Both the position numbers and the translations under genes were made by a program. From the NCBI GenBank assembly GCA_015956445.1, contig WIUZ02000015.1, forward strand, positions 248,001-312,000: a DNA stretch of 64,000 bases, read 5' to 3'. The number at the start of each line of letters is the position of its first letter. The first letter of the stretch is position 1. The DNA comes from Thelephora terrestris (Eukaryota; Basidiomycota; Agaricomycetes; Thelephorales; Thelephoraceae). Positions 36,999 to 60,244 of the stretch are shown one piece after another. The notes below the pieces were generated by a model that searched no databases, had not been told where the DNA came from, and was given only the letters and a program-made list of their open reading frames with translations.

Positions 36999-38623
36999 CT
37001 ACTCGTTCGCGTTATCGATGATCTCCATCAACTTGTCCACCGCCTTACTTTTCCCCCCTGCCTTTCGACAGGCCTCTGCTGCAGCCTTCGCTCTAGTTCT
37101 GAATCCCTTTGACTCCTTCCCTGGCCGCACGAGTCTCGCTACCGCCGCTCCAAATTCGATTGCCTCGATTCCTGGCGCAACACTCCTGTTCCCGTATATA
37201 CCGATACCCCGGTATTCTGCTCGGGCGGCCATATCATACAAGTCAGTCCACTGCGGCAGGATAATCTGCGGCAACCCAGCACTGAAGAATAAAAGACACG
37301 TCAGTGGAAAGGAAAACGGGGGTAGTCGCCTGAATCACTCACAGGGCTCCTTCAAAGTACGAATTTGCCCCGCCATGGTGAACCCAGGCAACAACGTTCG
37401 GGTGCTTCATGATAGAAGCTGGGTCAGCTTCGAGCCAACTGACGATCTTGAACTTGTCCCTGTCCCTGGGGTCCTTCAAAGCCTCCGCAATCAGGTCCTC
37501 GAAGTCAGGTTTACCAGGGAGCTTCCAGAGGAACTGAGTGTTTGAATCGTGGCTCACTGCGCCGAGGAAACCCCCAAGGATAGCCTTAACTTGGGAGTCG
37601 GAGTAGTGGAAGAGGGTTCCCATGCACATCAGCACCGTCTCCCCTCTGTTCAGCCATGGAATCAGTTCCGGGTCCGCGACCTCCAAGGGGACTGAGTCCA
37701 AGACGATTGGGCCATAGAGACCGACGTAGTCAGGCACAACCAGAGGAAAGTCTACCTCGCGGACACCGGGACAGATGACGTGGGTTGCGCGGCTGGGACC
37801 AGTCTCTATTGGTAGCCGACCTGGAATACCACGAGCGTTGCGATACTTGATAACTCCGTTGGAGGCTGGTGACGTGAGTATCGTCCAAATGAGTGCAAAG
37901 GAAGCCATGAGATTTGAGGGGAAATCCTTCCATTTGACTGGGAATGATATTCCGCTTCCGGTGCTGATCAAAAGACAAAGGCATCGGTCAAGGAGTTCTC
38001 GATCGGATAGGAAGAAACAACGAACGTTGGGTAGTACCAAAGCCCTTTCATCCATGGTTGGTGCGACCTTGAGACATCAAGCGGAGTGTTGGGAGAGTTT
38101 GCTACGAATTTGCGGTTTAAAGAATAGCAAGCGTCGAATCCAGGATTCAAGAGGGTGTCGACGACCAGCAACTCTGGGTTTAGTTCTTCAATCAGCTTCT
38201 TGATGCTATTGAATATCCGCATGTATGCTGGAGGGAGGGTAACATCGTCAGATTCCATCCATATACAAAAAAAGAACAAAGCGCACACTCCCCGTCCCAT
38301 CCCACAATTGCGAGCCCTAGGTTGTCATAGCCCGCAAGATTCTTGGATGTTGGTGGATGTGGGAGGTCCCGCTCTGTGAGCCCCTGCGCCGCTAACGCTT
38401 CGAGCATATGCTTGCCATCCAGTGGGTGGAAGTGGAACTTCGGACTGACCCTTTCGACGCGCGATTTGAGGACTGGGAAGGAGGCGATGTGCACTTCGGT
38501 GCGTGAACGCGTAGAGGCCTCGAGGGCCAAGGCCAAGATAGTGTTCGCTTGCCCGCTTTCCGCGTTTGTGATAAACAGGATCTTCTTGGGCCGAGCCTCA
38601 GTGTTACCGCTGTTGGCGTCCAT
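36999..38623 (-). CDS. UDP-glycosyltransferase 1
   Basis: A 480-residue GT1-type UDP-glycosyltransferase that would add a sugar from UDP-sugar to a small lipophilic acceptor. Exons are 38623-38287, 38227-38026, 37963-37343 and 37281-36999; phases 1, 2 and 2 agree with UGT 2. The N-terminal acceptor domain starts KKILFITNAESGQANTILAL. The C-terminal donor domain has the signature-like HPNVVAWVHHGGANSYFEGAL, split by the last intron before AGLPQIILPQWTDLYDMA. The Asp-Gln pair usual at the end of this signature is replaced by DLYD, as in UGT 2. No signal peptide or membrane helix is seen, so it is probably cytosolic. UGT 2 at 51.6 kb is a clear paralog. Confidence 0.88.
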
Positions 38624-40178
38624 AACTGTGGTCTGAGTGGGATGGACTTGTCGACATCAAGAGCTAAATACAGGGGGGGGAGCTTCCTTCGGTCACGAAA
38701 ATATTGCGTCCCAAGTTCCGGGCAGAACATCATGGAGATAACGAGCCGGCTTCCATGAGTGCGCTGGCGCTTGAAACGGAGGAGATGCCGCGAAGCCGCT
38801 CTGAATCGTTCCCAGAGACAGGATAATGCTTCCGTCACTTGATCGACAATGGGCGGGGAAGATTTGCAACGCGTTCCTTTCTCCCCAGGGAGTTCCGAAA
38901 ATTACTAGTCAGATGGTTCGCTGGTGAACAGGAAGACAAAGGACTGGTTTAATGCGGGCGGTGGAATGGACTCTCCAGGCTATGAATTCCTCGCAAGTTC
39001 TCAGAATTTCCATGCGGCGTTCGACTGTTGGAGATTGAATGAATCAACCCGCGTGTTTTACAAGGAATCGAAGAGCCTCACCGGTGGTATCAAGGCGGCG
39101 GCCTCAGAGGCAAGCTCACAGAGTCTGAGGTGATGCTAGCATCAATCAAGCAAATGAAAGGCCGATTCTATGGAACCAGGGGTTTCGCGGACGGCGAACG
39201 GTTATTATCGCTGAACCGGCTGCCACAAACGTCGTTGTTGGTCGCCTGGAGTGATTTCTTAATCGGGGCATAGACGCTTTCGGCGTGGTCGACAGGGACT
39301 GAAGTACTGAGGTGCAGAGAAGATAAAATGACGAATCACTACCATGCCCATGATAACGGACTGAGTGGGTGCGCGGTTTATTGGTCTCGGCGGAGTGAGG
39401 CACGATCGAAGCAAAGAGAGCGTTGTCCTTTCCGGGCCGTTGCGAAGCGGAAGGCGATCCGGCACGTGTCCCGCTTTTTGTTTTTGATCATCATTCTGAA
39501 TCTCAGCCGCGCAATGACGCGGCGCATCGTTTCGCCAGCTGACTGCCGTCAGTCAACTTGCGAGAATGTGCCAACCCACCCATTCCTGAGTACCGAGCTT
39601 CCGTATACTCGTGCTGGACCAGCAGGTAGCTTAATATACCTCTTTCCTGCTTCACATCCGCCCACTGTATCGTTCTATCCCGCAGGAATATTCGTGCACC
39701 CCCTCTCTCATTCGGAGCGGACTCCGAGTCCTTGCACGGAAGGATGTTAAGCTCGGAGCCTCCCTGGACAACGAGTCAGCGTCACTCATTCCTGTCGAGT
39801 GCGACGGATGCTCAGTGCGGGTACGTTCCGCAGAGGTCACGAAGGGTACTATCATCGCATCGTCTACCTCAGCAATGTGGATTGTAGCGGCGCCCGCTTC
39901 GCCTTTTTAACTCCAGCCACGAGGCCCCCTCCCTCAGCTCCGTTCTGCCGAGATAGGGGAATGCATAGGATGGATATCTGCCATATCAGAACCTGCAATT
40001 TCATTCCCACGTGCCATGCCTTCCGGCAGTTCCTCCTCCCGTGGCTCAGCGTGGCTTTCATTAATTCCTCAATCTTATACAAAGTCTTCCCTCCGGTCGT
40101 TCGGGATTGGATCCCACGGTTCACTACTTTGTACTGGTGTCCGATCTATAACATGTAAGTACACAACTCAGACTAAAT
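38624..40178. other. intergenic, no gene seen
   Basis: Contains a TATTTAG-type box on the minus strand near 38,665, some 40 bases upstream of the UGT 1 ATG. The rest has only unsupported frames. Confidence 0.35.
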
Positions 40179-41532
40179 TTACACGTCTGCCCATAATTTC
40201 CATCTACCAAACAAGAACTGAGAAATGGTCCCCCTTTCGGTGGTATAGTACCCGGCGAGGCTGGCCTCGTCTATATATATCGGCAGCGTCCAACAGAACC
40301 ATAGAGTCACCCATAAATAACCTACAACCCTTGCGATTACTTCTGGCCAAGACCCGTTAGGATTCCCGGGGTCGAGTTTGCTTCCCCTTTGAAGCAGTAA
40401 GCGTTTTGAGATGAAGATGACAAAGTCTTCTAACGTGATGGCGACTGCTTGGAGGGGGAAGAATATGAACGAGCGGTATACTATCCGTCTCTCGTACATG
40501 AATTCTCCAGCGAAGTGGAATAGTCCTGAGAGGAAGAAGGCGATATAGAGTTGGGTGTACGATGATAGATTTGTGCCACGAGGGAACCCCAAAATCTTGT
40601 TCGCAACGAGTTTTCCCAACCCTGCGAGCATCTAAACCGGGAGGGGACCTTCAGAAAAACATTTGCAGGAGAATAGAGCGAGCGTTCGTACCGGTCGCAT
40701 CGTTTGATGCCACGTCCGTCTGATGAGGGTTTGATTAATGGCAGGGAAGACAAGAAATTCCCCAAGATACGTACCCCCAAAGCTTTCGAAGGGTGTATGC
40801 GTCTCTCCATCTCCCCCACATGTCTGGCCACAGGGTAGGACTCGAGCCAGCGAGACCAACGCACACCAAAGCCCAGAAGCTCTGGACAGTCTTGAAGGAG
40901 AGTGCAATCCAAAGGCCAAACCCTAGGACGTAAGGCGCGCGGCGCAAAAGTGGGAGTGCGGCGAGGTAGGTCTCAGGGCCATCGGTCGGGTCGTGCGCAC
41001 GAGTGTCGAATACTGGGTTTTGGACGAACATCAATTTGAAAAGGTCGAGGAGAACGACGTATGCGATGAATTTAAAAAAGGTCTTCCAGAGGAATGTCCT
41101 GCGCGAAGGCGGCGGGGGCGGCGGTAAGCAGTCTCGTGGTTCTTGAACCCAACCGACCATACGAACGCTGTGTTTGAGGTCGACCATCCACCATAACTTC
41201 TTCGTCAGGGTGAAATTTGACGGCAAGCGATTCCGACCGTCTGTGTCAGCCTTTGCATGCACCTCGTCACGAACACGCTTCCAATGGTCAGGGAAGGACC
41301 CTTCCGTAAACATGAGGTATGCAACGGATCCGAAGTGAAGCGAAATTCTCTGGCCCATGGTACATACCAGCTCAACTGGTTTTGTGGTTTCGGTTGTGAG
41401 GTAGATATGGGCCGCGAGGTATATCATGGCGACAAGGATGACAGCCCGGTAAGCACGGCGACGTGTTGGGAAGAAGACGAGGCAGTGAAGGACCTCGAAG
41501 AGAAGGAACTCAGCCCATAGATTCCGTCCCAT
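40179..41532 (-). CDS. wax-synthase-like MBOAT acyltransferase, copy c
   Basis: 412 residues in exons 41532-40775, micro-exon 40719-40692 and 40631-40179. Starts MGRNLWAEFLLFEVLHCLVF. It has the WVQEPRDCLP block, the proline run, DPTDGPETYLAA, SPTLWPDMWGRWRDAYTLRKLWG, RTWHQTMRP from the micro-exon and the histidine in GLFHFAGEF. At the first base of the micro-exon it has A where the others have G, which keeps glycine (GGA). It is divergent from copy d, with starts 658 bases apart, and each has its own TATA box. Confidence 0.87.
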
Positions 41533-41602
41533 GACTGAACTGCTGGCCGGGCTTGTAACGGAGGAGGGATATTAGAACACCTTGGTCAGCCTAGGGAATC
41601 AC

Positions 41603-41609
41603 TTTATAT
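41603..41609 (-). promoter_or_regulatory. TATA box of MBOAT copy c
   Basis: TATAAAG on the minus strand, 71 bases before the ATG at 41532. Confidence 0.5.
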
Positions 41610-42104
41610 GGTTGATACAGTGATAAGTTAGAACGTTTTCCACAAACGCGGGTTTTAATAGAAAAGTCGGTTACATTCATCACCTGCATAAATCCCGTCC
41701 TTCGTCTTCCTTCCCATGGGTCGACGGCAAACCCTCCAACCAGTAAGCCGATACATCCTGTTTGAGGGACATAGAGCGCACTGTGAATAATAAATCCTTG
41801 TTTGCCAACCGAGAAACGGAAGTGTTGACACGTCGGAAGATCGCCGATTGCCGAGGCCAGGAGTTTGTAACCAAAAAACACAGTGATCGGTCCGGACACC
41901 TCCGTGAACTTTGACCTCAATCATCAATGTCGATTGGGCCGCGGAAGAGGAACAGCCCAAAATCAAGTTGTGGCACAGCGGATTTTCCGTACGACGTGCT
42001 TCCCTACTTACCTCGTCAGGGGCTGAGAAGGGAAGCCCCGTGGGTGAAATTAAACAGGTGGAGCGGATAGTATGGAATGAGAAAGGCTGCGCGCGTCCCC
42101 GCGG

Positions 42105-42111
42105 TATAAAG
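42105..42111 (+). promoter_or_regulatory. TATA box of MBOAT copy d
   Basis: TATAAAG, 86 bases before the ATG at 42191, followed by a pyrimidine-rich stretch with TCTTGCGCTTCCTCC that is also found, in variant form, upstream of copies a and h. Confidence 0.5.
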
Positions 42112-42190
42112 TTCCTCTGGGCTTTCCCAGTACGCTCTTGCGCTTCCTCCGGACTTTTCCGCACTGACAGACTCCACCAACAGTTCTGTG

Positions 42191-43528
42191 ATGGAAAGAT
42201 CTTCCCTTGCCAAAATACTTCTCTTCGAGATCCTTCGCGTCATCGCCTTGTACCCAACGGGCAACCTCGTTTACCGGCTGGTCATCTATGCCGCCACTAC
42301 CTATGTTATGGCTGAGTTGTTTCTAACCCCAGATATCACCGACTTGGGTCCGACAGCCAACAGCCTGGGCAATCGGATCGCGGTCCATTTCGGGTTCATC
42401 ACCTACCTTCTGTTCGTTGAAGGATCCTTCCCTGATCACTGGAGACGCGTCCGTGACGAAGACCATGCGAAGGAGAGTTCAGATAACTTGCCCTCAAGGC
42501 TCCCCTTGATGAAAAAGCTTTGGTGGATGTTAGACATCGCATACAGTCTCCGTTTGGTTGGGTGGGTTCAAGAACCACGAGACTGTCTACCACCACACCC
42601 GCCCCCTTTGCGCCGAAGGTTCCTCTTGAAAACTTCCTTGAAACTCATCATGAACATCGTCCTCCTCGACATTCTCACCCTACTGACCGCTCAAAACCAT
42701 GCATTCGACTCTCGCTTGCACGATCCCACCGACGGCCCAGAGACGTATCTCGCCGCGGTCCCGCTCCTACACCGTGTACCTTACGTCCTTGGATATGCAT
42801 TTTCGATCGAAAGGGGGGCTGCAGCGTTCATGAACGTCGTACATTTGGTTTGTGTTGGCCTCGGTCGCTCGAGCCCTACACTGTGGCTGGACATTTGGGG
42901 GAGCTGGGGGGACGCATACACCGTTCGGAAACTTTGGGGGTGCGTGTTTTGAGAAAGCTTCCACTTTCCTAGCCATTAAAGAAACAGATCATAGGCGAAC
43001 ATGGCACCAAACGTTGAGACCGGTATGCGCGTTTGCTCCGTTTTTCGTAATTGGTACCCTGAGCATCTCTCGTTCGTCTAGATGGTCTCGGGGTTTGGTA
43101 AGCTCGTCGCGAACAAGTTGTTGAAGTTCCCCCGTGGTACCAATCGATCGTCTTACACCCAACTCTATATCGCGTTTTTCCTGTCGGCGATCCTCCACTT
43201 CGGCGGTGAATACATGTGCGAAAGGCGGATGGTGTATCGCTCTTTCAAATTCTTCCTCCTCCAAGCCGTCGCTATAACTTTCGAAGACTTCGTCATCTTC
43301 ATCGGGAAACGCCTCCTACTCCAGAGGGGGATCAAAATCGATCCAGGGAATTATCGCAATTCTTGGGCGGAAGTGATCTTGAGGGTTGCAGGTTATTTTT
43401 GGGTGGGCTTCTGGTTCTGTTTGACGTTGCCGATATGGTCGGACGAAGCAAGTGCCATTGGGTTGCATGTAAAAAACAGAGGGTCTATCGCCCAGTTTTT
43501 GGTGGATGCGGGGAAGTCGTGGACATGA
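42191..43528 (+). CDS. wax-synthase-like MBOAT acyltransferase, copy d
   Basis: 407 residues in exons 42191-42939, micro-exon 42995-43022 and 43082-43528. Starts MERSSLAKILLFEILRV; a GTG codon just before is not the start. The conserved blocks are WVQEPRDCLPPHPPP, DPTDGPETYLAA, SPTLWLDIWGSWGDAYTVRKLWG (Leu for Pro before Asp), the micro-exon RTWHQTLRP and the histidine in AILHFGGEY. It lies head to head with copy c and in tandem with copy e. Confidence 0.87.
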
Positions 43529-44369
43529 AGTAGCCACCGTACATCTGTGCACTTCGCCATACACATAGGCGTGTTATTTCGACAAACAACCCCGAGGATG
43601 GAAGAGGCATCCCCAGTTCTGCACATTAAATTCAGTTAAATTCGATTTAAATCATAAGTTCGTCCAGAAAACGATTGAATGGGTGACTGTCCATAAGACT
43701 CTACCTGCTGGGTTGTAAACATATTTTCTGAGCCGCTTAACAGAACTGTCAGGACCCCGACCACTCTGTAGGGGTAGGGTGAGGAATACCGCAAAACTCG
43801 GCAACTGGCACCCTCCTCCGACCGACGGATATAACGATGCAGTATCTAGAATTAAAGATAGTCACCGAATTGAATTGAAAATTTCAGCCCTGAAAACTGG
43901 CGCCTAACTGAAAGGGGGACATAGATCGACTTCGCCTCGGTCGCTGTAGTTCGCACGTGAAGTGTATGGCCTTCGACCGGGGCTTCGAGCCACCGGGTAG
44001 TGCTTCCCAAATGACTGGGAATGACGGCTGCTGCACACAATTTATGAAGCGAGGTGTCATGGAAGAACAACGTCGTGTGATGGAACAACGAACAATCCGG
44101 TAGGGTACCTACGAACTCGAAGCGCCTCTTCCTGGCCGGATTTCGTCAGCCCTGCCCGATCAGTTCGGGTTTTTCATAAATTCTGATCGATTCGGTGATC
44201 TGCGAACGACAATAGGCGCTCTTCCCTTTCCTCTTCTTGTGTGTGACGCAGTGTGACGTGCACTTATGGTGACGTGCACTCATGGTGACAGACTTATGGT
44301 TACGGGATATCACTCGTGCGCTCTTGCGTTCCTTCGTTCGCCTCAATAAACTTGGCCTGCAACCCAGCG
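43529..44369. other. intergenic, no gene seen
   Basis: Carries a short direct repeat near 44,255-44,290 (a GTGACGTGCACT or related unit, three times counting the imperfect GTGACAGACTT form) before copy e. No gene. Confidence 0.4.
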
Positions 44370-45709
44370 ATGGGACAATTTCCATGGACGACAGCCCTCC
44401 TCTTCGAGGCCCTTCGCATCACCATCTTATACCCAACGCGTCACCATGCTTTTCGAGTTGTGGCCTTCGCCGCCATGATCTACGTTGCAGTCCAAGTCTA
44501 CCTAACGATGGAGGCCTCTAGGGGCGCGTCATACACCATTGGCATTTCGACGGCGCTGCACCTCGGATTCACCACATACCTTCTGTGCGGCGAAGGATCC
44601 TTCCCTGATCATTGGAGGCGCGTTCGCGACCAAGCCCACGCAAAGAGTGATGCGGGTGGTTCGGAGAACCTGCCCTCGAATTTTAGCTTCATGAAGAAAC
44701 TCTGGTGGACGATCGACCTCGCGTACAGCGTTCGTATGATCGGTTGGGTCCAGGAACCACAAGACTTACCCACACATCCACCACCTTCGCGTCGAACGTT
44801 CCTGTGGAACACCTCCTTGAAATTCATTGTCAACTTGTTCCTCGTCCCTGACCTTACAACCTTGGTGATCGGTCAATCTCCGGCGTTCGACTCCCGCCTG
44901 CACGATCCCACCGACGGTCCCGAAACTTACCTCGCCGCGGTCCCGCTCCTGCGCCGTGTGCCTTACGTCGTGGCGTTTTTCATTTTCATGGGAAGCCTGA
45001 CGTGTGGCTGCCATAACCTCCTGGCTTTAGTGTGTGTTGGTCTTGGTGGCTCGAGTCCCACGTTGTGGCCAGACAATTGGGGGAGCTGGGGAGACGCGTA
45101 TACTATTCGCAGGTTTTGGCGGTACGTGATTTTGGGAAACCGTCGCTTCTTCAACTAACGACAAGAAACATGATAGGAAAACATGGCACCAACGGATGCG
45201 ACCGGTAAGAACCCGTTTGTCCGTTCTTCTGTACACGTTTTTCTAAAAATCTCGTATCGCTTTAGACCCTGGCGGGGTGGGGAGGATTCGTTGCAAACAA
45301 GATCTTCAAGTTCCCTCGGGGTTCCAACCGATCTTCCTACACCAAACTGTATGTTGGGTTTTTCCTGTTTGGGATTATCCACCTCTCCGGTGATTTCATG
45401 TGCGCGAGGCGGATGATATATGATCCCTGCAAATTTTTTCTCCTCCAGCCCATCGCCATCACTTTTGAAGACTTCGTTATTTATCTCGCAAAACGTTCAC
45501 CGCTCCTGGGGGGGATTGGACTTGGGAATCGGACAGGGGCGGTTGTGAGGGTTGCAGGTTATTGTTGGGTGATGCTGTGGCTCTGCTTGGCGTTGCCGGT
45601 ATTGACAGGCGAACAAAGCACCATCGGGTTCAATGACTTCGATAGAGGGCCTATCGCTCGATTTTTGTTCGATAAATGGAAGCAATACGCCGTGGACCGC
45701 CAGAGGTAG
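44370..45709 (+). CDS. wax-synthase-like MBOAT acyltransferase, copy e
   Basis: 407 residues in exons 44370-45121, micro-exon 45177-45204 and 45266-45709. It is the odd one of the group: the junction reads WRKTWHQRMRP, so the glycine before the motif is Arg and two further positions differ, although WHQ is kept. The second histidine is in GIIHLSGDF. The third exon begins TLAGWGGFVANK rather than with Met, and the loop after the RSPLL segment is shorter. The frame is intact. The start at 44370 (MGQFPWTTALLFEAL) aligns with the other copies. Confidence 0.85.
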
Positions 45710-46957
45710 GCGGTGAGCAATCGAGTTCAAACTTCAATGCCACGCCGATACCATCTGCGGGAACGCTTTCTTTCTTGCGTCGCTGGAACCGCCGCGTAGG
45801 GTTATCCCTCTCACGACCTCCGTTGTTCCGGTCCTCTGAGAGAGGAACAGCAAGACCCATCTGTGCGCTCTGTCTGCTGAGCCTCCCCAAAACGTGTGAG
45901 TCCTCGACCACCGAAGCAAATGCATAGATTATAGGTGGGATGGTGGCACTAAAGATCAATACCAACTGTAGCATGAGGCTACGCCGCGACCATAGTCCCC
46001 ACAGTCGGAAGGGAGAGGGATCACTGTTCCGCTTGGTTGGACGGCTCGACACACACGGAATTCTCTCATATGCCTGCCGTTGGAGGAGGGGAGGGTTTGG
46101 GTCCTGCGACTTCTGCCGGGCCATGTGCGTCTGAAGTGAGGGGGTCTTCCAGGACGTTGGTAGAGCGGCCAGAGGTCCTGGTCAAGGAGGGGCCATGGGA
46201 GCGCACCCCTGAACACGCAATTGTCCTCAGGGTGGGTGGGACTCTAATCAATGTCCACTGTCCGGGGTCCTTGATTCGGGTGATCGAACGAAAAACGCAG
46301 GGTGGGTGCGCTCCCGCCGCTCCCCCCTGTTCCTGGTCTTCCAAAACAGGAAGACCCGTTAATGAAAAGGTCCTTCCTTGAGTTGCAGAAGCCTCAGCTC
46401 GAAGACCGTGTTATCCACGCCATTCTTCTCGTCGTCCGTCTCTTCGCTCGTTCGAAGCGCTCGTTCAGTTCCAGGAAAAATCTTTCTTCGCCCATCATCT
46501 ATGCAGATATCTGTGGAGCTCGTGCTCATAGGCTGGAGCCGAACTCTCGTTCTTCAATTGCCTTCCCTTCCGCTACTTCCTTCCGAGACACCGGCGCAAA
46601 GGCAATCCGAGCAGCTGGAAAGGGAATCCTCTCGCCTCGGGTATTTGAAGCGGCATCGCAAACAGAAATTTGAGATCTTCCCGGCAAATGCCTTCGTGAA
46701 CCTCACGGGATGATCAGACGTTCGGTCTCGTGTGCTGCAGGCCTCCTGTAGGTTCCTCGCCAGCTCCCCTTCCCGCTCAATAATCGACGGGTTTGTTGAT
46801 CTAACCGGGTCCGGCCCTACGTCACGCTCATGGGGGGTAATGCGTCTCCGTTATCTCAGGGCTTCCCTGCACCGAAGCGTCAATCCTATACAGCATCCGC
46901 ATATAAGCTGTAATTCTTCTCGCCAACGAGGTAGAGTCCGCTCTTACCCTCGTCAAG
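45710..46957. other. intergenic, no gene seen
   Basis: Plus-strand frames around 46,037-46,713 look partly coding (EVRGSSRTLVERPEVLV, LRVGGTLINVHCPG) but have no motif or splice model. Possibly a relic. Confidence 0.3.
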
Positions 46958-49339
46958 ATGGACTTGGAAAAGATAGCACTGATGTTCTGTGGAGCCACAG
47001 TGGCCTTCATCTGGTACAAACGCCTCCGCGCTTTTGCAATCAGGGACGTCCCAGGACCGAGGAACCCGTCATGGATCTACGGTATCTTTTGATCACCACA
47101 AAACTACCGCCGTTTTCTCACATTATACGAAACAGGTCACGCATGGTCGTGGATATCGAGCAAGGCCATTGTCGTCGAGAAGGAGCTTCTGGAAGAATAC
47201 GGATCCATCGTTCGCTGGAATGGGTTGTTTGGGGTGCGCTGTTTTTCCATGAATCAGACGCAGTGTGTCCTCACGCTGCAGCAGGAAGACCGCTTGTGGG
47301 TCGCCGACCCCAAGGCCGTCCAGCATATCTTCCAAGGTCCCGATCGTCTGTACGAGAAACCGCACTTCCAGAGGGAACGGATCGCAATGCTCACCGGTTG
47401 GGGGGTTGGAACGGTCGAGGGCGAGTTGCATCTCATGTCTCATTTAACTTGCCTCCTAAGTTAGACCCCAGGAGATGCACATAAACGCCAGAGGAGAGCC
47501 ATGGCCCCAGCCTTTGGTCTTGTCGAAGCCAAAGCTTTATACCCACACTTCTCTCGGTGTTTTGACTCCGTCAGTCATCATCCCATCTACTCGTTGTCGC
47601 TCATCTCCGAACTCTTTTTTTCGTCTGATAGCTCGTCGATAAATGGCATGAGACCATTTCGAACTCGGAATCGGGACAAACTGCAATTTTCGATGTGAAC
47701 TCTTGGCTTAACAAAGCATCGCTTGATGCGTACGTCTGAAAATCGAGAGCATGTGCATATAGTGTCCGCTGACCAGAACCAGAGTCGGTGCAGGTGCTTT
47801 CGGCTATGACTTTGGTGCTTTGGAAAATGCCGGCAACAAGCTCGCCGAGACGTACGAGAACTTAACGTGCTGATCCCTTCCCTTACAATGCAAGGATCAT
47901 TGTGATAATCGACTTTCATAGGTTCGATGCAGGTGCCTCGCTCTCCAAGATATATCTGTTTGTGATGGATTGCTTCAAATGGGCCCCGAAGGGCTCATTT
48001 CTCTGGCTGATCGACTGGGGCAAGAGTCCGCAATTGACAAAACTCCGGCAGAACAAGATATATGCGCACGAGGTCGCTACTCAGTTGATCGAGGAGAAGA
48101 GGCAAGAGCTGAAGGATGGCACCTCTCGAAAGGATATCCTCAGTTTACTCGGTCCGTCTTGCATTTCCATTCACACGGCACACGGCAGATGGCTGAATAT
48201 TCGATTCTTCAGTCAAAGCAAACTCTGCCCTGCGACCAGATTGGCGGCTGAACGATGACGAAATTATCGCCCAAGTTCGGTGAGGCAATTTCGGTAATTA
48301 ACATTCCCTCGCTGACATGGCGCAGAACGCTCATGTTCGCGGGACACGAAACTACGGCAAAAGCGGTTAGCTGTTCCGCACAATTGAATTCCGGACCCAC
48401 TCAAACCAGTCCCGCAGCTGACAGGCGCCCTCTGGGAACTTGCCGAAAACCGGCATGTCCAGGAAAAACTCCGAGCGGAAATTATGGAAACGCTGTCGCG
48501 TATCAGGGCCAGAGGAGATAGCGATTTCACCGTGAATGATTTTGATTCCATGCCGTACTTGCTCGCTGTGGGAAAGGTTTGTCAGGAGCCCAGCCTGTCT
48601 GTTGGCGAGAGTTGACCCTACCCTCCGCATAGGAAATCTTGAGGGTCTACCCGGTCGTGGTCGAAGTCGTGCGTGCACCCAAGAAGGACGATGTGCTCCC
48701 CCTTTCGAAGCCATTTGTCGGTCGGTCTGGAAAGCTTTATCGGGATTTACACGTTCCTGCGGGGACAATCGTGGCAGTCTCATCGGTCGGATACAACTTG
48801 TGCGTTCCTCCTCCTCTCTTCCTGCATCCACGTGGGAATCATCGCGGTTGAGAGACTGATTTATGCGCTCCGCAGGAACAAGGACGTTTGGGGGCCGGAC
48901 GCTTACGAATTCAGACCGGAACGATGGCTCGACATGAACGGAAAGCCTGAGTCACCCGTCGGCCTCTACGGAAACCTGTGCGTAATTTAATTCCATGTCC
49001 ACCACATGCATACCCTGAGTTGAGATCCCTCGATTCAGCGCTACTTTCTGCGGAGGCCACAAGGGTTGCATTGGATGGCGATTCGCGTAAGTTCCATCAG
49101 CGCTACGCCAAATAGAAGTTAATCAACTGACCGGCCGGTTGTTCGTTTGCTACCGATATAGCGTCATCGAGCTGCACACTTTCTTGGTCACGCTTATCAG
49201 GCACTTTGACTTTTCCCTCCCGAACGACGGACGAGAATTGGCGAAGACGAGGCTAGGGGCGATTTCGCCGGTGGTGGTCGGGGAGGAACATAAAGGGCCG
49301 CAGCTGCCGCTCAAGGTTACCATTCTCGGGAACGCGTAG
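46958..49339 (+). CDS. cytochrome P450 monooxygenase 2
   Basis: A 543-residue P450 encoded in 14 exons: 46958-47081, 47136-47233, 47282-47420, 47472-47569, 47632-47729, 47783-47866, 47922-48151, 48213-48279, 48326-48365, 48418-48576, 48633-48799, 48876-48977, 49039-49086 and 49162-49339. Every phase fits. It shows an N-terminal anchor (IALMFCGATVAFIWY), a proline hinge (VPGPRNPSW), the I-helix FAGHETTAKA, the ExxR in KEILRVYP, FRPERW, and the heme loop FCGGHKGCIGWRFA, where Lys stands at the usual Arg. The third intron needs a GC donor. The C-helix WxxxR is represented by HKRQRRAMAPAF. It sits between MBOAT copies e and f, inside the cluster. The subfamily is not assigned; the layout fits the large basidiomycete CYP families. 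Confidence 0.87.
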
Positions 49340-49868
49340 GGCGTGGTGGTGGGTTGGGGCAGGTCAATATGGCGGTTGACGCGTATATAAGATCGTATCG
49401 TATCATATTCTCCCCACTACAGAAGGGGAGGGGGACTTATCTTTTTGTTTATCAAAAGTTGGCTGTAGAGCCTAACTTTCACCCACATTGAAGACATCTA
49501 TACCCACGGTTTTTTTTGCTACGACTTGCCAGTCTCGGGTGATTAGGCATACAGCCGCGCACATATCCCCCAGTCTCACCCCGGCGCTACTCAACCATTT
49601 CGCCCTTCTCAGGCGGCCCTCGGCTCTCGGTGCTTATCTTCTGGCGATATCATAGATGCGAAGAACCATCTTCAACGCCCGCCGAATTGAAAACCCATCA
49701 TCCCGGGCTCCAAAATACGGTACAGAGAGCCTTCCCTCTGATGGATTATTCTTAAGACTGCACGCCCCCTGCATATGTGCGAGGGTCATTAATCAAGTTT
49801 AAAACGAGTAGAGGCCTCCGATTCGGAGCGTGCACCTATGTATATACGACCTTGAATGTAGATGTACA
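49340..49868. other. intergenic between convergent genes
   Basis: Terminator region of P450 2 and MBOAT copy f. A GAGCCTTCCCTCTGA block near 49,726 recurs in the 3' flank of copy g (near 53,930) and, weaker, near copy c; it is a leftover of MBOAT duplication. Confidence 0.4.
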
Positions 49869-51205
49869 TTACGCCCATAGTTTCCATCTATCGAATAGAA
49901 ACCGAGCAATGGGCCCCCTATCAGCGGTGTAGTTTCCGGCGAGGCTGGCGCCATCTATGTATCCCGGCAACGTCAAACAGAACCACAGGGTCACCCAGCA
50001 ATAACCTACAACCCTCACGACCGCTTCTGCCCAAGACTCGTGAGGATTCCCTGGATTGAACCTCTTGGGTACCAAGCGTTTCGCGATGAAGATAATGAAG
50101 TCTTCGAATGTGATGGCGGCGGCTTGGAGGGGGAAGAATCTGAACGAGCGGTAGACCATCCGTCTCTCGTACATGAATTCTCCGGCAAAGTGGAAGACCG
50201 CTGACATGAAGAAGGCGAAGTAGAGTTGGGTGTAGGAGGATAGATTGGTGCCACGGGGGAATCTCAAAATCTTGTTCGCAACGAGCGTTCCCAACCCCGA
50301 GAGCATCTAAATTAGGATGAGAACCTCAGGACAATGTTTGCAGGGGAATGAAGTGAGTGTTCGTACCGGTCGCATCGTTTGGTGCCATGTTCGCCTAACA
50401 AGTGTCTGGTCAACGAGTGTAGCGAGAAGATTCCTCAACATACGTACCCCCAAAGCTTCCGTAGGGTAAACGCATCCCCCCAGCTCCCCCATACGTCTGG
50501 CCACAGGGTGGGACTCGAGAAGCCAAGCCCAACACACACCAAAGCGGTGATGTTGTGCAAAATCTTGAAGCAGACTGCAAGCCAAAGGCCGAATGCTAGG
50601 ACGTAAGGCGTGCGCCGCAAGAGGGGAATTGCAGCGAGGTAAGTCTCGGGGCCGTCGGTGGGATCGTGCACCCGAGGGTCGAACACCGGGTTTTGAGCGA
50701 AAATGAGGGTGAGAAGGTCGCGGAGGACGAAGTTTGCGATCAATTTCAAGAAGGTCTTCCAGAGGAATGTTCTGCGTGAAGGCGGCGGAGGCGGCGGTAA
50801 GCAGCCTCGTGGTTCTTGAACCCAGCCAACCATACGAACGCTGTGCGCGATGTCAAACATCCACCAGAACTTCTTCGTGAACGGGAAATTCGACGGTAGG
50901 TTACCCGAACCGTCTGCATCAGCCCCTGCGTCGACTTCGTCGCGAATGCGCCTCCAATGGTTAGGGAAGGACCCTTCTGTACACAGGACGTACGCGACGA
51001 ATCCGAAGTGGAGCGCGATCCGATGGCCCACGGCGTATGCAGCCCCGCCTAGCTCAGCGACGTTTTCTGTTAGGTAGATTCCGGCTGCGAGGTGGATCAT
51101 GAGGGCGAGAGTGACAACCCGATAGAAATGGTGACGCGTCGGGAAGAAAATGAGGATATGGAGGACCTCGACGAGGAGGAAGTCTGCTAACGGATTTCGT
51201 CCCAT
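49869..51205 (-). CDS. wax-synthase-like MBOAT acyltransferase, copy f
   Basis: 407 residues in exons 51205-50448, micro-exon 50394-50367 and 50306-49869. Starts MGRNPLADFLLVEVLHIL; an in-frame ATG 14 codons earlier (51247) is less like its paralogs. It has WVQEPRGCLP, DPTDGPETYLAA, SPTLWPDVWGSWGDAFTLRKLWG, RTWHQTMRP and AVFHFAGEF. A small deletion of four residues shortens the loop (RLVPKRFNPGNP, against RLLLKRGIKLNPG in copy a). Divergent from UGT 2, with 408 bases between the start codons. Confidence 0.87.
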
Positions 51206-51613
51206 GACCGAACTGCTGGCTATATTCGCCGGGAGGGAAGGATGCAAGGACGCATTGGTCTGTCTCGGGATCGCTTTATGTTACGTGGATGCAGGAATGA
51301 GCAAGAGGAATGAAAATGCAGGTCGGGGAAAATAGGCCGGTTACGTCCACCAACCGCGTCAATAGATCCATCGTCGTTGAGCTGTTTGTCAATCAAGGAA
51401 CGGAAGCAATCGTCTGGTCCGTGGGAAGATTAGTACTTAGTTCCAAATGCTGGGAACGCCGTTTTAAGCGCTGGCATGATCATGGAAGCTGGCTCCTTAT
51501 TTCCGTGATGTTCCACCGGTCTATGGTATTTTTTATGACCGAACAGGGCTTTATCACTCTCTATTTAATGTTTACCCCTCGACGCCGAACTGCAAAGCCC
51601 ACCCAGACCACCC
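51206..51613. promoter_or_regulatory. divergent promoter region, MBOAT f / UGT 2
   Basis: A 408-base gap between two genes read in opposite directions. A TATTTAA box lies at about 51,563, some 50 bases before the UGT 2 ATG, and a CATAAAG box on the minus strand at about 51,274, some 70 bases before the MBOAT f ATG. Confidence 0.45.
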
Positions 51614-53237
51614 ATGGATGCTAACAAAGACCACGCTGACGTTCGGACCAAGAAGATCCTGTTCGTGACACACTCGGAAAGGGGCCAATCGAACACGATT
51701 CTGGCTATTGCTCTCGAGGCTTCCACACGTCTGCACGTTGAAGTGCACATCGCCTCCTTCCCGAGTCTCAAATCGCGCGTCGAGGCCCTTAGCCCGAAGC
51801 TCATCTTCCACCCGTTAAATGGCAAGCCCATGTTCGATGTCTTTGCGGAGCAGGGAGTCGCGGAGCAGGATCTCTCCCACCCTCCGATGAAGAAGAATTT
51901 TTGGGCTTTCATGGACAAGTTTGTGTTCGTGACGACGGCACCGGACGGGGAGTGTACGTCCTTTCCTCTGCTTCGATCATGGCTGGGATCCTGACAGCGC
52001 CATCTCTCCATTTAGCATACGTGCGGTTATGCGATAGCGTCAAAAAAACGATCGAAGGGCTAAACCCGAGTATGGTGGTCGTCGACAGCCTATTGCATGC
52101 GGCATTCGACGCATGCTACTCTTTGAACCAGAGATTCGTGATAAGCACTCCAAACACCCCGCTGGATATTGCGAGAAAGTACCAACCGTGGTTGAAAGGA
52201 CTTTGGTACTACCCATGGTGCGTTCTTCCTGCCAATCCGTTCCAGAAACTCTGATTCAGATCTTCGTCTTTCGACCAGGATGGGCACCGGAATATCGTTC
52301 CCGGTCCCATGGCGGGATCTCCCCTGGAACGTCATCGCCGTACTCGTGCTTTTTTACAAGGTGGCTACGTCACCAAAGGTTATTCAGCTCAACAAGGATC
52401 GCGAAGCCCACGGTCTCTCAGACCAACCACCTACAAGATGGGCAATCACTCGCGCACTCCACGTCATCTGTCCCGGTGTCCGCGAGACCGACTTTCCGCT
52501 AGTTGTTCCCGACTACCTCGGCCTTTACGGGCCGATCGTCTTGGACACAACTCCCGTTGACCTTTCTGACCCGGAATTGAACCGATGGTTGGACAGGGGA
52601 CAGACGGTGCTGATGTACATGGGAACTCATTTCTGCTACTCCGAGTCTCAAGTCAAGGCTATCCTCAACGGTTTCCTGAGTGCAGTGGGCCACGATTCGA
52701 GCACCCAGTTCCTCTGGAAGCTTCCGAATAGATCAAAATTCGAGAACTTGATCGAGGAGGCTTTGAAGAATTCAAGGGATAAGGAGAGATTCAAGATTGT
52801 TAATTGGCTTGAAGCAGATCCGCCTTCCATCATGATGCACCCCAACGTCGCGGCCTTGATCCATCACGGTGGGGCGAATACTTATTTTGAAGGAGCCCTG
52901 TGAGTAGATCAGACGGCTTTCACTCCGTTCCGTTCAATCTGACGCTCATTTCTTTTGCAGCGCGGGAGTGCCACAGATCATTCTGGCGCAGTGGTTCGAC
53001 CTGTATGATATGGCGGCCCGAGCGGAATATTTAGGTATCGGTATCTACGGGAACAGGAGTGTCGCGCCGGATATCGAAACGATCGAGTTTGGGACGGCGA
53101 TCGCGAGGCTGTTGAGGCCAGGGAAGGAATCAGAGGGATTCAGGACGCGAGCTAAAGTTGTAGCAGAAGCGTGTAGAAAAGCTGGGGGAAAGAGGAGGGC
53201 GGTGGATAAGCTCATGGAGATCACCGACCGCGAGTAG
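51614..53237 (+). CDS. UDP-glycosyltransferase 2
   Basis: A 479-residue paralog of UGT 1. Exons are 51614-51953, 52016-52217, 52279-52899 and 52961-53237; exons 2 and 3 are the same length as in UGT 1 (202 and 621 nt). It starts with a KKILFVTHSERGQSNTILAI segment and has LDIARKYQPWLKGLWYYPW, HVICPGVRETDFPLVVPDY, the donor-site HPNVAALIHHGGANTYFEGAL and AGVPQIILAQWFDLYDMA. The HHGGAN and downstream Glu of the UGT signature are present. Cytosolic by absence of signal or membrane helix. Located among MBOAT and P450 genes, it is the best candidate for glycosylating a product that the MBOATs then acylate. Confidence 0.88.
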
Positions 53238-54061
53238 CGAACATGTAGGCTGCAAGCGAACATCTTGGGGTTTGGTGGGTTCGTCTACCAACCGGATATT
53301 CAGCGGATACGTGGAAATAAATAGCATAACGTAGTAGGCACCTTACGCTCACGCACCTATGTATGTACATGAGTATTTTTGGAGACTGAGTACTTCTTAC
53401 TGTCCCGGAAATACTGCAGGCCATCGTCAGAGAAGTGCGAAGACCGAGAAGAGGTCACGATGAAGACGTCACCAAATGATTTGTCGAGGGAAAAATACAC
53501 ACCGGCGTAATCGATTACTATGATTCCAAAATGTCAGATCCTTCCGGCAAAGTTGGAACCCCGGAAGAGCGATGTAACCAGCGCTACTGTCGATCACGTA
53601 GAGTTCGAGGGGTCGAGAGCTCGTGGAAGTGGTGCCAGCGTGGAGGACCGGTTTAACCGAGAGAGAACACTAAGAACTCGTCTGCAATGAACCTGCTTGA
53701 GACCGTCTAGACAAAACACGAGTTGAGAATGCTGTTGTCTCAACATCAACCCCGCTTCTTCTTCCTGTCGATGTTCCATGAGATGCGAAACTTACTTTCT
53801 CAGCCCCATCGAAATAGAAAAGGAATACGTAGCATGAAATATATACCGGGCCGAAACCCAGAACCACCGCGCGACGCGAGTCCCTCTCATCCAGTGGCTT
53901 CCATTGATCCCACAATGTTATGGAGAAAGCCTTCCCTCTGAGGATGGCACGTACTCTTGGGGTCCAAGTTCGCATTCGACGATTCACCGGTCACCACTTT
54001 GCGCTGGCCTCCAATTCGGAACATGCGTCTATGTGCGCAACTCGGACCGAGCGTGTATAGA
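53238..54061. other. intergenic, no gene seen
   Basis: 3' regions of UGT 2 and MBOAT copy g meet here. The part after about 53,900 resembles the 3' flanks of copies f and c. Confidence 0.35.
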
Positions 54062-55412
54062 TCATACCCATAGCTTCCATTTATCAAATAAAAACTGGGC
54101 GATGAACCACCTATCCGTGATGTAGTTCCCGGCGAGGCTGGCGCCATCTATGTATCCCGGCAACGTCAAACAGAACCATAGGGTCACCCAGCAATATCCT
54201 ACAACCCTTACGACCGCTTCTGCCCAGGACTCGTCGGAATTCCCTGGATTCAGTTTGATTCCCCTCTTGAGCAGTGAGCGTTTCGCGATGAAGATGATGA
54301 AGTCTTCCAACGTTATGGCGACGGCTTGGAGGGGGAAGAATTTTAACGAGCGGTAGACCACCCGTCTCTCGTACATGAACTCCCCGGCGAAGTGGAAGAC
54401 TGCTGACATGAGGAAGGCGACGTAGAGTTGGGTGTAGGATGATAGATTGGTACCACGGGGGAATTTCAGAAACTTGTTCGCGACGAGTCGCCCAAACCCT
54501 GAGAGCATCTAAACCAGGATGAGGTTCTCAGAACAATGTTTGCAGGAGAATAGAGCGAGGGTTCGTACCGGTCGCATCGTTTGGTGCCATGTTCGCCTAA
54601 CAGATATCTGGTCAACGGCCGGCGAAGCGAAGAAAAAACCAAGACACCCACCCCCAAAGCTTTCGAAGGGTATATGCGTCTCCCCATCTCCCCCACACGT
54701 CTGGCCACAGGGTAGGACTCGATCGACCGAGACCTACACAAACTAAAGCTCCGAGATTGTGGGGAATCTTGAACCAGAGTGCAACCCAAAAGCCAAATGC
54801 TAGAGCGTAAGGCGCGCGGTGCAAGAGCGGGATTGCTGCGAGGTAAGTCTCGGGGCCATCGGTGGGTTCGTGTACGTGAGGGTCGAATACTGGATTTTGA
54901 GCGAAGATGAGGGTGAAAAGGTCGAGAAAGACGATATTGACGATGAATTTCAAGGAGGTCTTCCAGAGGAATGTGCCGCGCGAAGGCGGCGGGGGCGGTG
55001 GTAAGCTGTCTTTTGGTTCCTGAACCCAGCCAACCATACGAACGCTGTGTGTGATGTCAAGCATCCACCAGAGCTTCTTCGTGAGCGGGAAATTCGATGG
55101 TAGGTCATTCGAACCGTCCGCATCAGCCCCTGCACCGACTTCGTCACGAACACGCCTCCAATGGTTGAGGAAGGACCCCTCTGTCCACAGAAGATATGCG
55201 GTAAATCCGAGGTTGAGGGCAATCGTGTGGCCCACAGTGTATGCCAGCCCAGCTGGTTCAGTGGCCTCCATCGTAAGGTATATTTTGGCTGCAAGATAGA
55301 TCATGAGGGCGATGATGATAACCCGATAGAGATTGTGACGTGTCGGGAAGAAAACGAGGATGTGAAGGACCTCGAAGAGTAAAATTTCCGCTAACGGATA
55401 TCGTCCCATCAT
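54062..55412 (-). CDS. wax-synthase-like MBOAT acyltransferase, copy g
   Basis: 411 residues in exons 55412-54652, micro-exon 54596-54569 and 54508-54062. The first two codons are both Met; the upstream one (55412) is used. It has WVQEPKDSLP (Ser for Cys), EPTDGPETYLAA, SPTLWPDVWGRWGDAYTLRKLWG, RTWHQTMRP and AVFHFAGEF. The first donor is GTGGGT rather than GTACGT. It is closest to copies a and h in exon 1 (helix ILVFFPTRHNLYR is shared). In tandem with copy h. Confidence 0.87.
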
Positions 55413-56039
55413 CGAGCCGCTTGCTCTGCCGCCACGAAGGGGGAGAAGATACGAGGGTGTTCCCGTGAGATAAGCATAGTTCCTTCAAGCAGACTACATA
55501 CAACGGGTGTATCCGTGTAGTGGTGGTGATCGGCAACGTGTTGAGGGATGACGTCATTTTCTGTTTTTTTCCCATCGCAGTCTCAGGCCGAGGACGGTGT
55601 CCGCCGCCGTGATTATTTGAACAAGGGGATGCAAAGGGGATGCGATGATTTTTTGTGTAATGTAAATACTGGAAATAAATCAGCGGATGTATCTACCTGT
55701 AATAAAATTTGAATGTCAGCTTGATCCCTAAATAACACGGCTCTACGATTTTCCGTCGACGGAAAAAATGAGTTTTATGAACGATTCCCGCGCGCAAGTC
55801 GCGGGATGCACTGGACAGGTCGGCCGCTCGGCGCGTCGATTCCGTCGCGTTTGTCAGCATTCCCACGACCAAATCATGCACCTCACTGTCAGCTCTGGGC
55901 CGCGTCCCTTAGCTTCAACGCCTGTCCCAGCACCACAGCATCCGGACGGTTTTGCTGCTGCGAGTCTGTGCCCTACTAATCTGTGAGGCTTGAAGTCCTA
56001 GATTCCAATAACCGACTGGTAGAGTTCAAACAAGCGCGT
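55413..56039. other. intergenic, no gene seen
   Basis: Only unsupported frames. Confidence 0.35.
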
Positions 56040-56260
56040 CACTAGCCATCTCACTTTGCTTCCCAGCAGTCCTCAGGCTCCTTGGTGAGCCTCTCTGGGG
56101 CTACGGAACTTCAAGACATCCCGTTTCGGCTTGAACTCCCTGATCCTCACCAAGTACAACAAATCTCGCTTGACATAGATATACCGACGTCTTCAGGTGA
56201 CATTCAATCTAGGACGGTCGGGCCTCAACTCGTCATTCGCCTATATTACCCTTGTTTTTG
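56040..56260 (+). pseudogene. F-box exon-2 fragment
   Basis: A short frame reads SLSGATELQDIPFRLE and then QVQQISLDIDIPTS. This lines up with the exon-2 start of the intact family (LSKATKLRDVLFRCTD and ENIQRISLDIP in copy B). No exon 1 and no C-terminal block were found, so it is a truncated relic. Confidence 0.5.
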
Positions 56261-56734
56261 GCAGGCGAGACTCATCGCGACAACGACTTGGGGACACGAA
56301 AGCAGGGGAGCGGGACAGGGTATCGCCGCGCCAGGGGCCTTGACTCACGCGTGGTCGTTACCATGACGTCTCAATCTACAACCCTGTGCTTATCATCCCC
56401 GGTGTACACCCGGCTGGTTTACAGAGCTCTTCGTGAGGCGGCGGCCTATCAGCGAACTTTAGATGATCTGCCTAGATGATCACCGAAGTCGTGGCCAAGC
56501 AAGCTCTGTTGGCAAAGAGTTCTTGCAGCTACAATATGGGAACAGTCTTTATATGCTAAATACACAGTCCGGTAGAATTGCGTTCGCAAATAAACATCGC
56601 CCACGCCCACGGAAAACACTTCCCTCCGACGACGTACTCAGGGGTTCGAGTTCCGGGTCAACGATTCGCCGCCTTACATTGGTCTCTACTTCGAAGCACG
56701 TATCTATGCGTATAACCCAGGCTGTATATATACA

Positions 56735-58081
56735 TCACGCCCACGATGGTTTCCATCTATCAAACAAAAACTGGGCAATGGGCAACCTATCCATGGTGTA
56801 GTTCCCAGCCAGGCTAGCCCCATCTATATACCCCGGCAACGTCAAACAGAACCATAGAGTCACCCAGCAATATCCTACGACCCTCACGACCGCTTCTGCC
56901 CAAGACTCGTCGGGGTTTCCTGGATTGAGTTTGATTCCCCTCTTCAGTAGCAAGTGTTTCGCGATGAAGATGATGAAGTCTTCGAGGGTGATGGCGACGG
57001 CTTGGAGGGGGAAGAATTTGAACGAGCGGTAGACCATCCGTCTCTCGTACATGAATTCTCCACCAAAGTGGAAGACTGCTGAGAGGAAGAAGGCGACGTA
57101 GAGTTGGGTGTAGGACGATAGATTAGTGCCACGGGGGAATCTCAAAATCTTGTTCGCGACGAGTTTCCCAGGCCCCGAGAGCATCTAAAGGGATGCTATC
57201 CTCAGAACGACGTTTGTAGGAGAATAGAGCGAGACTTCGTACCGGTCGCAACGTTTGGTGCCATGTTCGCCTAACACATGTCTGATCAGCGACTCAGTCA
57301 AAAAGGTTCATCAACATACGCACCCCCAAAGCTTCCGAAGGGTAAACGCATCTCCCCATCTCCCCCAAATGTCGGGCCACAGAGTAGGACTCGAGCGACC
57401 GAGGCCTACAAACACTAAAGCGGCGATGTTGTGCAAAACCTTGAAGAAGAGAGCAAGCCAAAGGCCGAATGCTAGGACGTAAGGTGCGCGGCGGAAGAGG
57501 GGGACTGCGGCGAGGTAAGTCTCGGGGCTGTCGGTGGGATCATGTACGCGAGGGTCGAATACTGGGTTTTGAGCAAACACGTAGGTGAGAAGGTCGAGAA
57601 GGAGGAAATTTGTGATGAGTTTCAATAAGGTATTCCAGAGGAATGTGGTGCGGGAAGGCGGCGGGGGCGGTGGTAAGCAATCTTTTGGTTCCTGCACCCA
57701 GCCAACCATACGAGAGCTGTGTGTGATGTCAAGCATCCACCAGAACTTCTTCACGAACGGGAAATTCGATGGTAGATTACCCGAACCGTTTGCATCGGCC
57801 CCTGCACCGATTTCGTCACGAAAGCGCCTCCAGTGGTTAGGGAAGGACCCTTCTGTGCACATGAGATAGGCGGTGAACCCGAAGTTGAGAGCGATTGTGT
57901 GGCCCACGGCATATACCACCCCAGCTGGTTCGGTGGCTTCCGTTGTTATATATATTTTGGCTGCGAGATAGATCATCAGGGCGAGGATGACAGCCCGATA
58001 GAGATTGTGACGTGTCGGGAAGAAGACGAGGATGTGAAGGACCTCGAAGAGGATGAATTCCGCTAACGAATATCGTCCCAT
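56735..58081 (-). CDS. wax-synthase-like MBOAT acyltransferase, copy h
   Basis: 411 residues in exons 58081-57324, micro-exon 57270-57243 and 57184-56735. Starts MGRYSLAEFILFEVLHIL. It has WVQEPKDCLP, DPTDSPETYLAA (Ser for Gly), SPTLWPDIWGRWGDAFTLRKLWG, RTWHQ and AVFHFGGEF; the micro-exon reads TWHQTLRP. It is the duplicated twin of copy a at 6521, with matching introns and 3' flank. Divergent from F-box copy C, with 461 bases between the start codons. Confidence 0.87.
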
Positions 58082-58266
58082 GACCGATCTGCCGGCTGGG
58101 ATTGTCGAGACGAAGGAGGAGGAAACGCAAGAGCGTGTGGGTCAACCCTGCGAGAAGCAGCAAGGGGAAAAAAGCATGAGCGCTTCAGTGCTTCTCCCTT
58201 TGATCCTTCGCTCCGCCCGCATCGTCCCTCCCCTCTCAAGCAGTCCTCAGTACCCACCCTGAGCCA

Positions 58267-58273
58267 CTTTATA
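58267..58273 (-). promoter_or_regulatory. TATA box upstream of MBOAT copy h
   Basis: TATAAAG on the minus strand in the sequence GTACATATAAAGTGG. It is 186 bases before the ATG. The same site in the duplicated copy a region reads GTACATATGACGTCG. Confidence 0.4.
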
Positions 58274-58542
58274 TGTACAAGACACAGGTATTCTTTTCCC
58301 AACTCCTCTGAGCTCTTAGAGTTCAAAGTAGAACGGAGGAGGGGCGGAAGCAACGCTGCAGCGCGACGGAACCGGAACGGGTGGATAGAGAAAGAGGCGC
58401 TCCGGTGGCGGAAAACACCCCCAATGAAAATTTCCCACACTTCCCCTCACCCACTCTTCGATCTGCTTCCGTTGGTGAGTGCCACTGAAAGTCTGGTGCC
58501 CGTTCCAAGAAAGACTGACCACAAACCAGGGACTAAACAGCG

Positions 58543-59699: not shown

Positions 59700-60244
59700 T
59701 TTACTTAGGGCACGGAAAGTTGGTGGCAGGCTTCGGTTTAGTTTGGGCGAGCTTTACACAACGGTCATTGTTACGGTATATTTTGTTGGAATGGAATGAA
59801 ACACGTAGGATTTCCTTACCGTGTGAAAGTTCGTTTCTCTCGCGCTCGTTCAATAGTACCCTGCAATCCCCCATGGCTTTTCCTACGGACTTGACCTTCC
59901 ATTGTATCGATTACCCAGCACATTCGACCTCGTCACACTCCAGGCTTGCAAAACGTGGAAATGAATGATACTGTAGGTGCCTGCCGGGTTTGGCATGTGC
60001 GCAAGCGGGGTGGAAATTGTTTTTGATCAAAAATCAACGGACTCGTTCGGAGCGGAGATAGAGTTCGTGGACGCCCAGCTTGTCGTCGCTTGCCCTGCTC
60101 TACAGCAAGCGCTAGCCAAGGCTAATGATCGCAACTTCGAGGTCACCTGGACCTCCTTTGTGCGGTATAGTTCCAGGTACGTGACAGCCTAACAAATAAT
60201 TGCAAAGCTGATAAGGCCACCAACTTCACAGTGGTGATGGTGCA
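59700..60244. other. intergenic with homology to 4313-4930
   Basis: Part of the inverted duplication. An open frame at 59,977-60,192 is not convincing as an exon, because joining it to the next gene leaves a stop. Confidence 0.4.

Follow-up and report, generated by a model that had tools for sequence, protein, structure and literature searches.

An MBOAT_2 acyltransferase array with glycosyltransferase and P450 genes inside it in the genome of Thelephora terrestris

In basidiomycetes, cytochrome P450 (P450), UDP-glycosyltransferase (UGT) and acyl-type transferase genes are joined in the erinacine (eri) cluster of Hericium erinaceus, for which the available portion of the source lists the P450s eriA, eriC and eriI, the UGT eriJ, the acetyltransferase eriL, the geranylgeranyl diphosphate (GGPP) synthase eriE, the UbiA prenyltransferases eriF and eriG, and oxidoreductases (PMC11969743). 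A literature search on fungal gene clusters, including those of basidiomycetes, with MBOAT or wax synthase genes returned nothing on point in the portions of text that it brought up. Here, a region of the Thelephora terrestris genome (40.6 Mb in 60 contigs) is described in which P450 and UGT genes lie among eight acyltransferase genes. The window, that is, the entire 64-kb stretch analyzed, corresponds to positions 248001-312000 of contig C7; gene coordinates are those of the window, with position 1 as its first letter, unless a contig is named. The region is probably a local array of MBOAT_2 genes that encloses a P450 and two GT1 UGTs, the families of which are centered in other parts of the genome.

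The MBOAT_2 array and its growth by duplication

Reading of the frames from stop to stop and comparison of one MBOAT copy with the window by tblastn reveal eight copies of the MBOAT gene, together with two UGTs and a single P450 of the type denoted P450_2. The interval 36999..58081 holds nine genes in the order UGT1 (-), MBOAT c (-), d (+), e (+), P450_2 (+), f (-), UGT2 (+), g (-), h (-), all with open, spliceable frames. An earlier reading of the sequence only had given this list with the same order and strands, and all nine genes are present as it stated. Its further claim, that several neighbors share divergent promoters, applies to two pairs inside the interval, c/d (658 bp between the starts) and f/UGT2 (408 bp), and to h and an F-box gene (~460 bp) at the interval edge, so that ‘several’ comes down to two pairs within. 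Beyond the nine genes, the window contains MBOAT a, MBOAT b, a second P450 (P450_1), an Abhydrolase_3 gene and SnoaL-like genes.

Alignment of the eight MBOAT loci shows two conserved introns that flank a 28-base middle exon, and splicing at these introns yields eight three-exon proteins of 407–412 amino acids. The introns are short and of the GT-AG type and, along with the gene content, suggest a mushroom-type fungus. In the interval, these are c (40179..41532, minus strand, 412 amino acids), d (42191..43528, plus, 407), e (44370..45709, plus, 407), f (49869..51205, minus, 407), g (54062..55409, minus, 410) and h (56735..58081, minus, 411); copies a (6521..7869, plus, 411) and b (14346..15699, minus, 412) lie to the left. 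In a profile search of this genome, all eight pass the PF13813 cut-off of 25 bits (C7:255333, 262613, 288458, 291064, 293278, 298130, 302335 and 305011), with 71.4 bits for the full-length f and 25.7 bits for e, the third exon of which alone reaches 24.5 bits, just below the cut-off. The WHQ segment and the conserved His after it, which belong to the acyltransferase core, are found in all nine spliced models (eight from the window and one from contig C24). By these features, the window MBOATs are assigned to the MBOAT_2 (wax-synthase-like) acyltransferase family, PF13813. A search of solved structures with MBOAT f matched no MBOAT relative. Each of these proteins would most likely be a membrane enzyme acting on lipophilic small molecules, with acyl-CoA as the acyl donor and a hydroxyl as the acceptor.

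The concentration of these genes in a single place is apparent at the scale of the genome. The PF13813 search gave 14 matches at 13 loci (two matches are exons of one place on C1), both counts being lower bounds, and 8 of the 13 loci found in the 40.6-Mb genome fall within a single 52-kb part of the window. The genome-wide search with MBOAT f produced 26 matches, namely, the eight copies described here, an intact copy on C24 (59 and 63% identity by exon), a degenerate copy on C58 (44–49%) and weak matches on C5, C1 and C23 (24–51%, the last over 45 residues). This clustering exceeds chance, yet it does so through local duplication. Self-comparison of the window identifies an inverted duplication of 3.9 kb (4319-8109 against 60363-56497, 85.6% identity over 3927 columns) that carries a divergent F-box/MBOAT pair and is located at both ends of the region: the left arm (4319..8109, plus strand) contains an F-box gene and MBOAT a, and the right arm (56497..60363, minus strand) contains MBOAT h and an F-box gene. 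MBOATs a and h are 90.0% identical.

The nucleotide tree, computed from the codon-aligned sequences of C24 and the eight copies in the window, has the shape of a ladder. On one side are b, which is among the most divergent copies, C24, e and d (support 100, with a weakly supported order among the four, 55–66); onward, c joins (99), followed by f (86) and then g, and the young pair a/h stands apart (100). In all 36 pairs of these nine genes, the ratio of nonsynonymous to synonymous divergence (dN/dS, pairwise NG86 estimates) lies in the range of 0.237–0.390, and the synonymous divergence itself (dS) spans 0.18–1.33, indicating very different ages of the copies. Given the inverted duplication, the ladder-shaped tree and the dN/dS values, the array is shown to have grown stepwise, by tandem and inverted segmental duplication, and the purifying selection under which the copies are kept is supported as well. 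An array of pseudogenes was considered and rejected, all eight copies being open and dN/dS being far below 1.

Several smaller observations concern the surroundings and remnants of these genes. The C58 relic belongs to the same subfamily and lies in pieces (L029, C58:2012001-2019000), and a frame in this stretch (L029:1052-1975) looks F-box-like by eye. On C24, the frame L027:2319-2690 begins with the same residues as the intact MBOAT (L027:5129-6471) before diverging from it and, by eye, looks like a truncated second copy. Within the window, there are three related small SnoaL-like genes (2243-2797, 3470-3921 and 8459-8908), with a SnoaL_2 match below the family cut-off, and self-comparison shows that 8322-9297 holds a second copy, with 89% identity, of a 1-kb block at 3326-4313. 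The composition of the window and its tandem repeats are unremarkable.

Glycosyltransferases and P450s from families centered elsewhere

Both UGTs consist of four exons. UGT1 (36999..38623, minus strand, 480 amino acids) scores 32.0 bits with PF00201 (UDPGT, cut-off 19.5) and 34.2 bits with PF06722 (EryCIII-like_C, cut-off 31.7), and UGT2 (51614..53237, plus strand, 479 amino acids) scores 24.3 and 39.2 bits, respectively. The C-terminal half of these proteins matches solved GT1 enzymes, and the nucleotide-sugar binding region is present. In GT1 enzymes, a G-H segment close to the N-terminus contains the catalytic His, and some GT1 enzymes that lack this His are still active. At this position, G-Q is found in all 15 readable members of the UGT subfamily in this genome, among 17 genes looked at from ~21 places; the two that could not be read are C5_342 (position not covered) and L040 (no pattern match). 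In the window, the Gln is located in the N-terminal segments 51614-51953 (UGT2) and 38623-38287 (UGT1). The N-terminal profile sets the Gln opposite a His of the glycosyltransferase 7yp3, a weak match (E = 0.19), and it is by profile that the subfamily is, provisionally, filed under GT1. A literature search on the replacement of the GT1 His by Gln brought up nothing on point in the text portions returned. A fungal GT1 subfamily with Gln at the catalytic His position in every readable member from one genome deserves attention.

The relatives of UGT2 found by genome search comprise 62 exon matches at ~21 places by our own count of these matches, mostly on C12, then on C5, with single places on C34, C60, C11, C16 and C58. 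An exon-by-exon search of the genome with PF00201 gave no matches, but this search was evidently too weak, missing the window's own UGTs as well. Over the aligned pieces, identity amounts to 66.2% between UGT1 and UGT2, compared with 69.4% between UGT1 and C12_1643 and 67.5% between UGT2 and C12_1643. A clade of UGT1 and UGT2 is neither supported by the UGT tree, in which these two and two C12 lines form no resolved groups, nor rejected by the approximately unbiased (AU) test (p = 0.296). On C5, two UGTs of the same family (C5:342934-350328 and C5:369186-378686) have a ketosynthase and an AMP-binding match ~20–35 kb away, and the group possibly represents a polyketide synthase (PKS)-type cluster with UGTs.

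P450_2 (46958..49339, plus strand) was modeled by hand as a protein of 562 amino acids over 13 exons, with some exon edges uncertain, and scores 182 bits with PF00067 in a version shortened by hand to 533 amino acids. The AGHETT motif, ExxR (EILR) and the heme segment FCGGHKGCIG are all open; AGHETT, ExxR and the heme Cys are hallmarks of P450s. Its closest relatives, in a genome search in which 82 of the 124 candidates were scored, are on C14, C58 and C45. P450_1 (18666..20442, minus strand) scores 113.8 bits with PF00067 on its last exon, the only one that is well modeled, the 5' part being incomplete, with one junction not found. By sequence, the best solved relatives of P450_1 are sterol 14-demethylases (57 bits over ~120 residues), and CYP4B1 is nearly as good (55 bits), so that the link to sterols is only a lead. 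Three paralogs of P450_1 were found (on C23, C14 and C34). The one at C14:508764 (59% identity) is sandwiched between two P450_2-type genes, C14:503980-506351 and C14:511837-514226, so that the two P450 types adjoin twice in this genome; on the contigs of the C23 and C34 paralogs, there is no P450_2-type match among the scored candidates.

Divergent from P450_1 is the Abhydrolase_3 gene (21644..22471, plus strand, a stop-to-stop frame without the 5' exon), which matches PF07859 with 88.6 bits (cut-off 25) and, more weakly, PF10340, Say1_Mug180, with 29.8 bits (cut-off 21). The 76% identical paralog of this gene, C12:584206, lies at a distance of ~23–28 kb from two terpene synthase matches of opposite orientation (C12:608169 and C12:611961).

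Elsewhere in the genome, the relatives of these families occur apart from one another. The intact C24 MBOAT has no match to the UGTs or P450s of the window in the surrounding 10 kb; the UGT trio on C12 has no MBOAT match within 9 kb; and the 16 kb around the P450 trio on C14 (C14:500001-516000) contain no UGT, MBOAT or hydrolase of the window types. C24 is absent from the genome-wide lists of UGT2 and P450_2 matches, and the C58 matches of both families are far from the C58 MBOAT relic. Given that the relatives on C24, C12 and C58 are unlinked, the mixture of MBOATs, UGTs and P450s is, within this genome, found only in the window. The UGT and P450_2 families are shown to be centered elsewhere, on C12 and C14, respectively.

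Core enzymes, flanks and promoters

Genome searches for enzymes that could form a scaffold gave 17 terpene synthase, 13 ketosynthase, 20 AMP-binding and 4 UbiA matches, none of them on contig C7; the AMP-binding search, in which 14 of the 101 candidates were scored, provides the weakest of these four absences. The statement of the earlier reading that the window holds no synthase gene stands for these four families. In the flanks, 100 kb on each side, the longer open reading frames (ORFs) were scanned with profiles (80 of the 256 ORFs of at least 100 amino acids on the left and 74 of the 247 on the right), and no scaffold-forming enzyme family was detected among those scanned. A core enzyme hidden in the flanks is therefore rejected within the limits of the longer ORFs scanned and of the four families searched; squalene and oxidosqualene cyclases and prenyltransferases other than UbiA were outside these searches.

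The scanned ORFs of the left flank yield matches to kinase (14 of the 80, PK_Tyr_Ser-Thr), ABC transporter, transposase, helicase and F-box families, and those of the right flank to retrotransposon, transposase, kinase, Myb, cellulase and F-box families. None of the flank stretches matched the MBOATs, UGTs or P450s of the window. Relatives of the window's F-box genes are spread over both flanks; on the left (C7:148001-248000), there are four near full-length relatives (L009 twice, L011 and L012; 39–42% identity) of the 518-amino-acid F-box protein encoded at 32903-34459. The matches of three flank ORFs to Ery_res_leader2 and of one to Apolipoprotein were taken as chance.

The regions upstream of UGT1, UGT2/f and P450_2 have in common three 7-mers, compared with 1.9 expected, and one 8-mer, compared with 0.14 expected (with a maximum of 2 in 200 shuffles), but no word of 9 or more bases. 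This comparison gives no clear sign beyond chance.

Readings of the locus and comparison with known systems

Under the reading proposed here, a local MBOAT_2 array with UGTs and a P450 from families centered elsewhere, the UGTs and P450s would most likely contribute, independently or in partly shared fashion, to the decoration of molecules the scaffold of which would be made elsewhere. Some observations sit uneasily with this reading. The UGTs and P450s lie inside a short array, UGT2 and MBOAT f have a divergent promoter of 408 bp in common, chance placement of the UGTs is not very likely, with ~0.03 UGT places expected in a fixed 52 kb (~21 in 40.6 Mb, a post hoc estimate), and the two P450 types of the window adjoin on C14 too. 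The placement inside the array and the repeated P450 pairing speak for a functional grouping. That all nine genes of the interval constitute one pathway is possible but less likely than not.

Three other explanations can be weighed against the same evidence. Chance neighborhood, whereby the UGTs and the P450 came by accident into a region that is unstable and prone to duplication, without any common role, is a real possibility, although it falls somewhat short of an even chance: the region is full of duplicated genes, transposon genes occur in the flanks, and UGT1 and UGT2 (66.2% identity) are as distant from each other as either is from the C12 members (61.3–69.4%), whereas the low expected number of UGT places and the intactness of both UGTs count against it. 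Somewhat less probable is a true tailoring cluster without a core, in which the P450s would hydroxylate, the UGTs glycosylate and the MBOATs acylate one scaffold from primary metabolism (a sterol, triterpene or fatty acid), yielding acylated glycosides. The earlier reading had proposed such tailoring enzymes with the core elsewhere; the families, their order and the absence of a core enzyme agree with it, whereas local duplication, tandem and inverted, accounts for the large number of MBOATs, for which it had envisaged different substrates. Intact frames, the interleaving of mixed families, the shared f/UGT2 promoter, the second P450_1/P450_2 neighborhood at C14:504-514k and the Say1_Mug180 (steryl acetyl hydrolase) match of the Abhydrolase_3 gene in the window are in favor of this tentative scheme, and against it are the lack of a nearby core enzyme within the searches made, the lack of a promoter word clearly beyond chance, and the lack of matches to the window's UGTs or P450s in the 10 kb around the C24 MBOAT, to its MBOATs within 9 kb of the C12 UGT trio, and to its UGTs, MBOATs or hydrolase in the 16 kb around the C14 P450 trio. 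The earlier reading had also named, as evidence against a cluster, homologs scattered and unlinked in close relatives; relatives of each family are indeed unlinked elsewhere in this genome, which is part of what it had named.

It is rather unlikely that the locus serves to modify harmful lipophilic compounds, foreign or self-made, with a varied set of acyltransferases, UGTs and P450s of broad substrate range and with diversity maintained by birth and death of copies. The very different ages of the MBOAT copies (dS 0.18–1.33) fit such a role, as do surroundings rich in expanded families, the kinases on the left and the F-box genes on both sides; the ABC transporter (ABC_tran, L007:2-1312, with PDR-type matches) lies ~100 kb away on the left, a distance at which it carries little weight. 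To our knowledge, however, MBOAT_2-type acylation does not rank among the classic detoxification steps. A more specific proposal, core-less decoration in which the eightfold MBOAT_2 set, the Gln-type GT1 and the co-travelling P450_1 and P450_2 would convert a sterol or triterpene into acylated glycosides, with the acyl pattern evolving by copy number alone, is improbable.

Should the genes have a joint function, this locus would provide a compact natural example of one scaffold receiving many acyl patterns through local duplication of an acyltransferase, and it would offer divergent copies of known relative age that could be tested singly. Even without joint action, it is a clean record of the birth of MBOAT_2 genes by tandem and inverted duplication under constraint.

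Compared with known families, the window MBOATs resemble the PF13813 MBOAT_2 (wax-synthase-like) proteins in the profile match over the cut-off, the WHQ segment and the conserved His, and differ from the family at large in the local expansion to eight copies. The window UGTs resemble GT1 UDP-glycosyltransferases (PF00201) in the C-terminal half and differ from them in having Gln instead of the N-terminal catalytic His. With the eri cluster, as represented in the available portion of its description, the likeness is that of a basidiomycete locus joining P450s, a UGT and an acyl-type transferase, a comparison by gene families rather than by the EriJ and EriL sequences. The eri cluster has its core enzymes inside, whereas in the T. 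terrestris locus none was found and a single acyltransferase family is present eight times.

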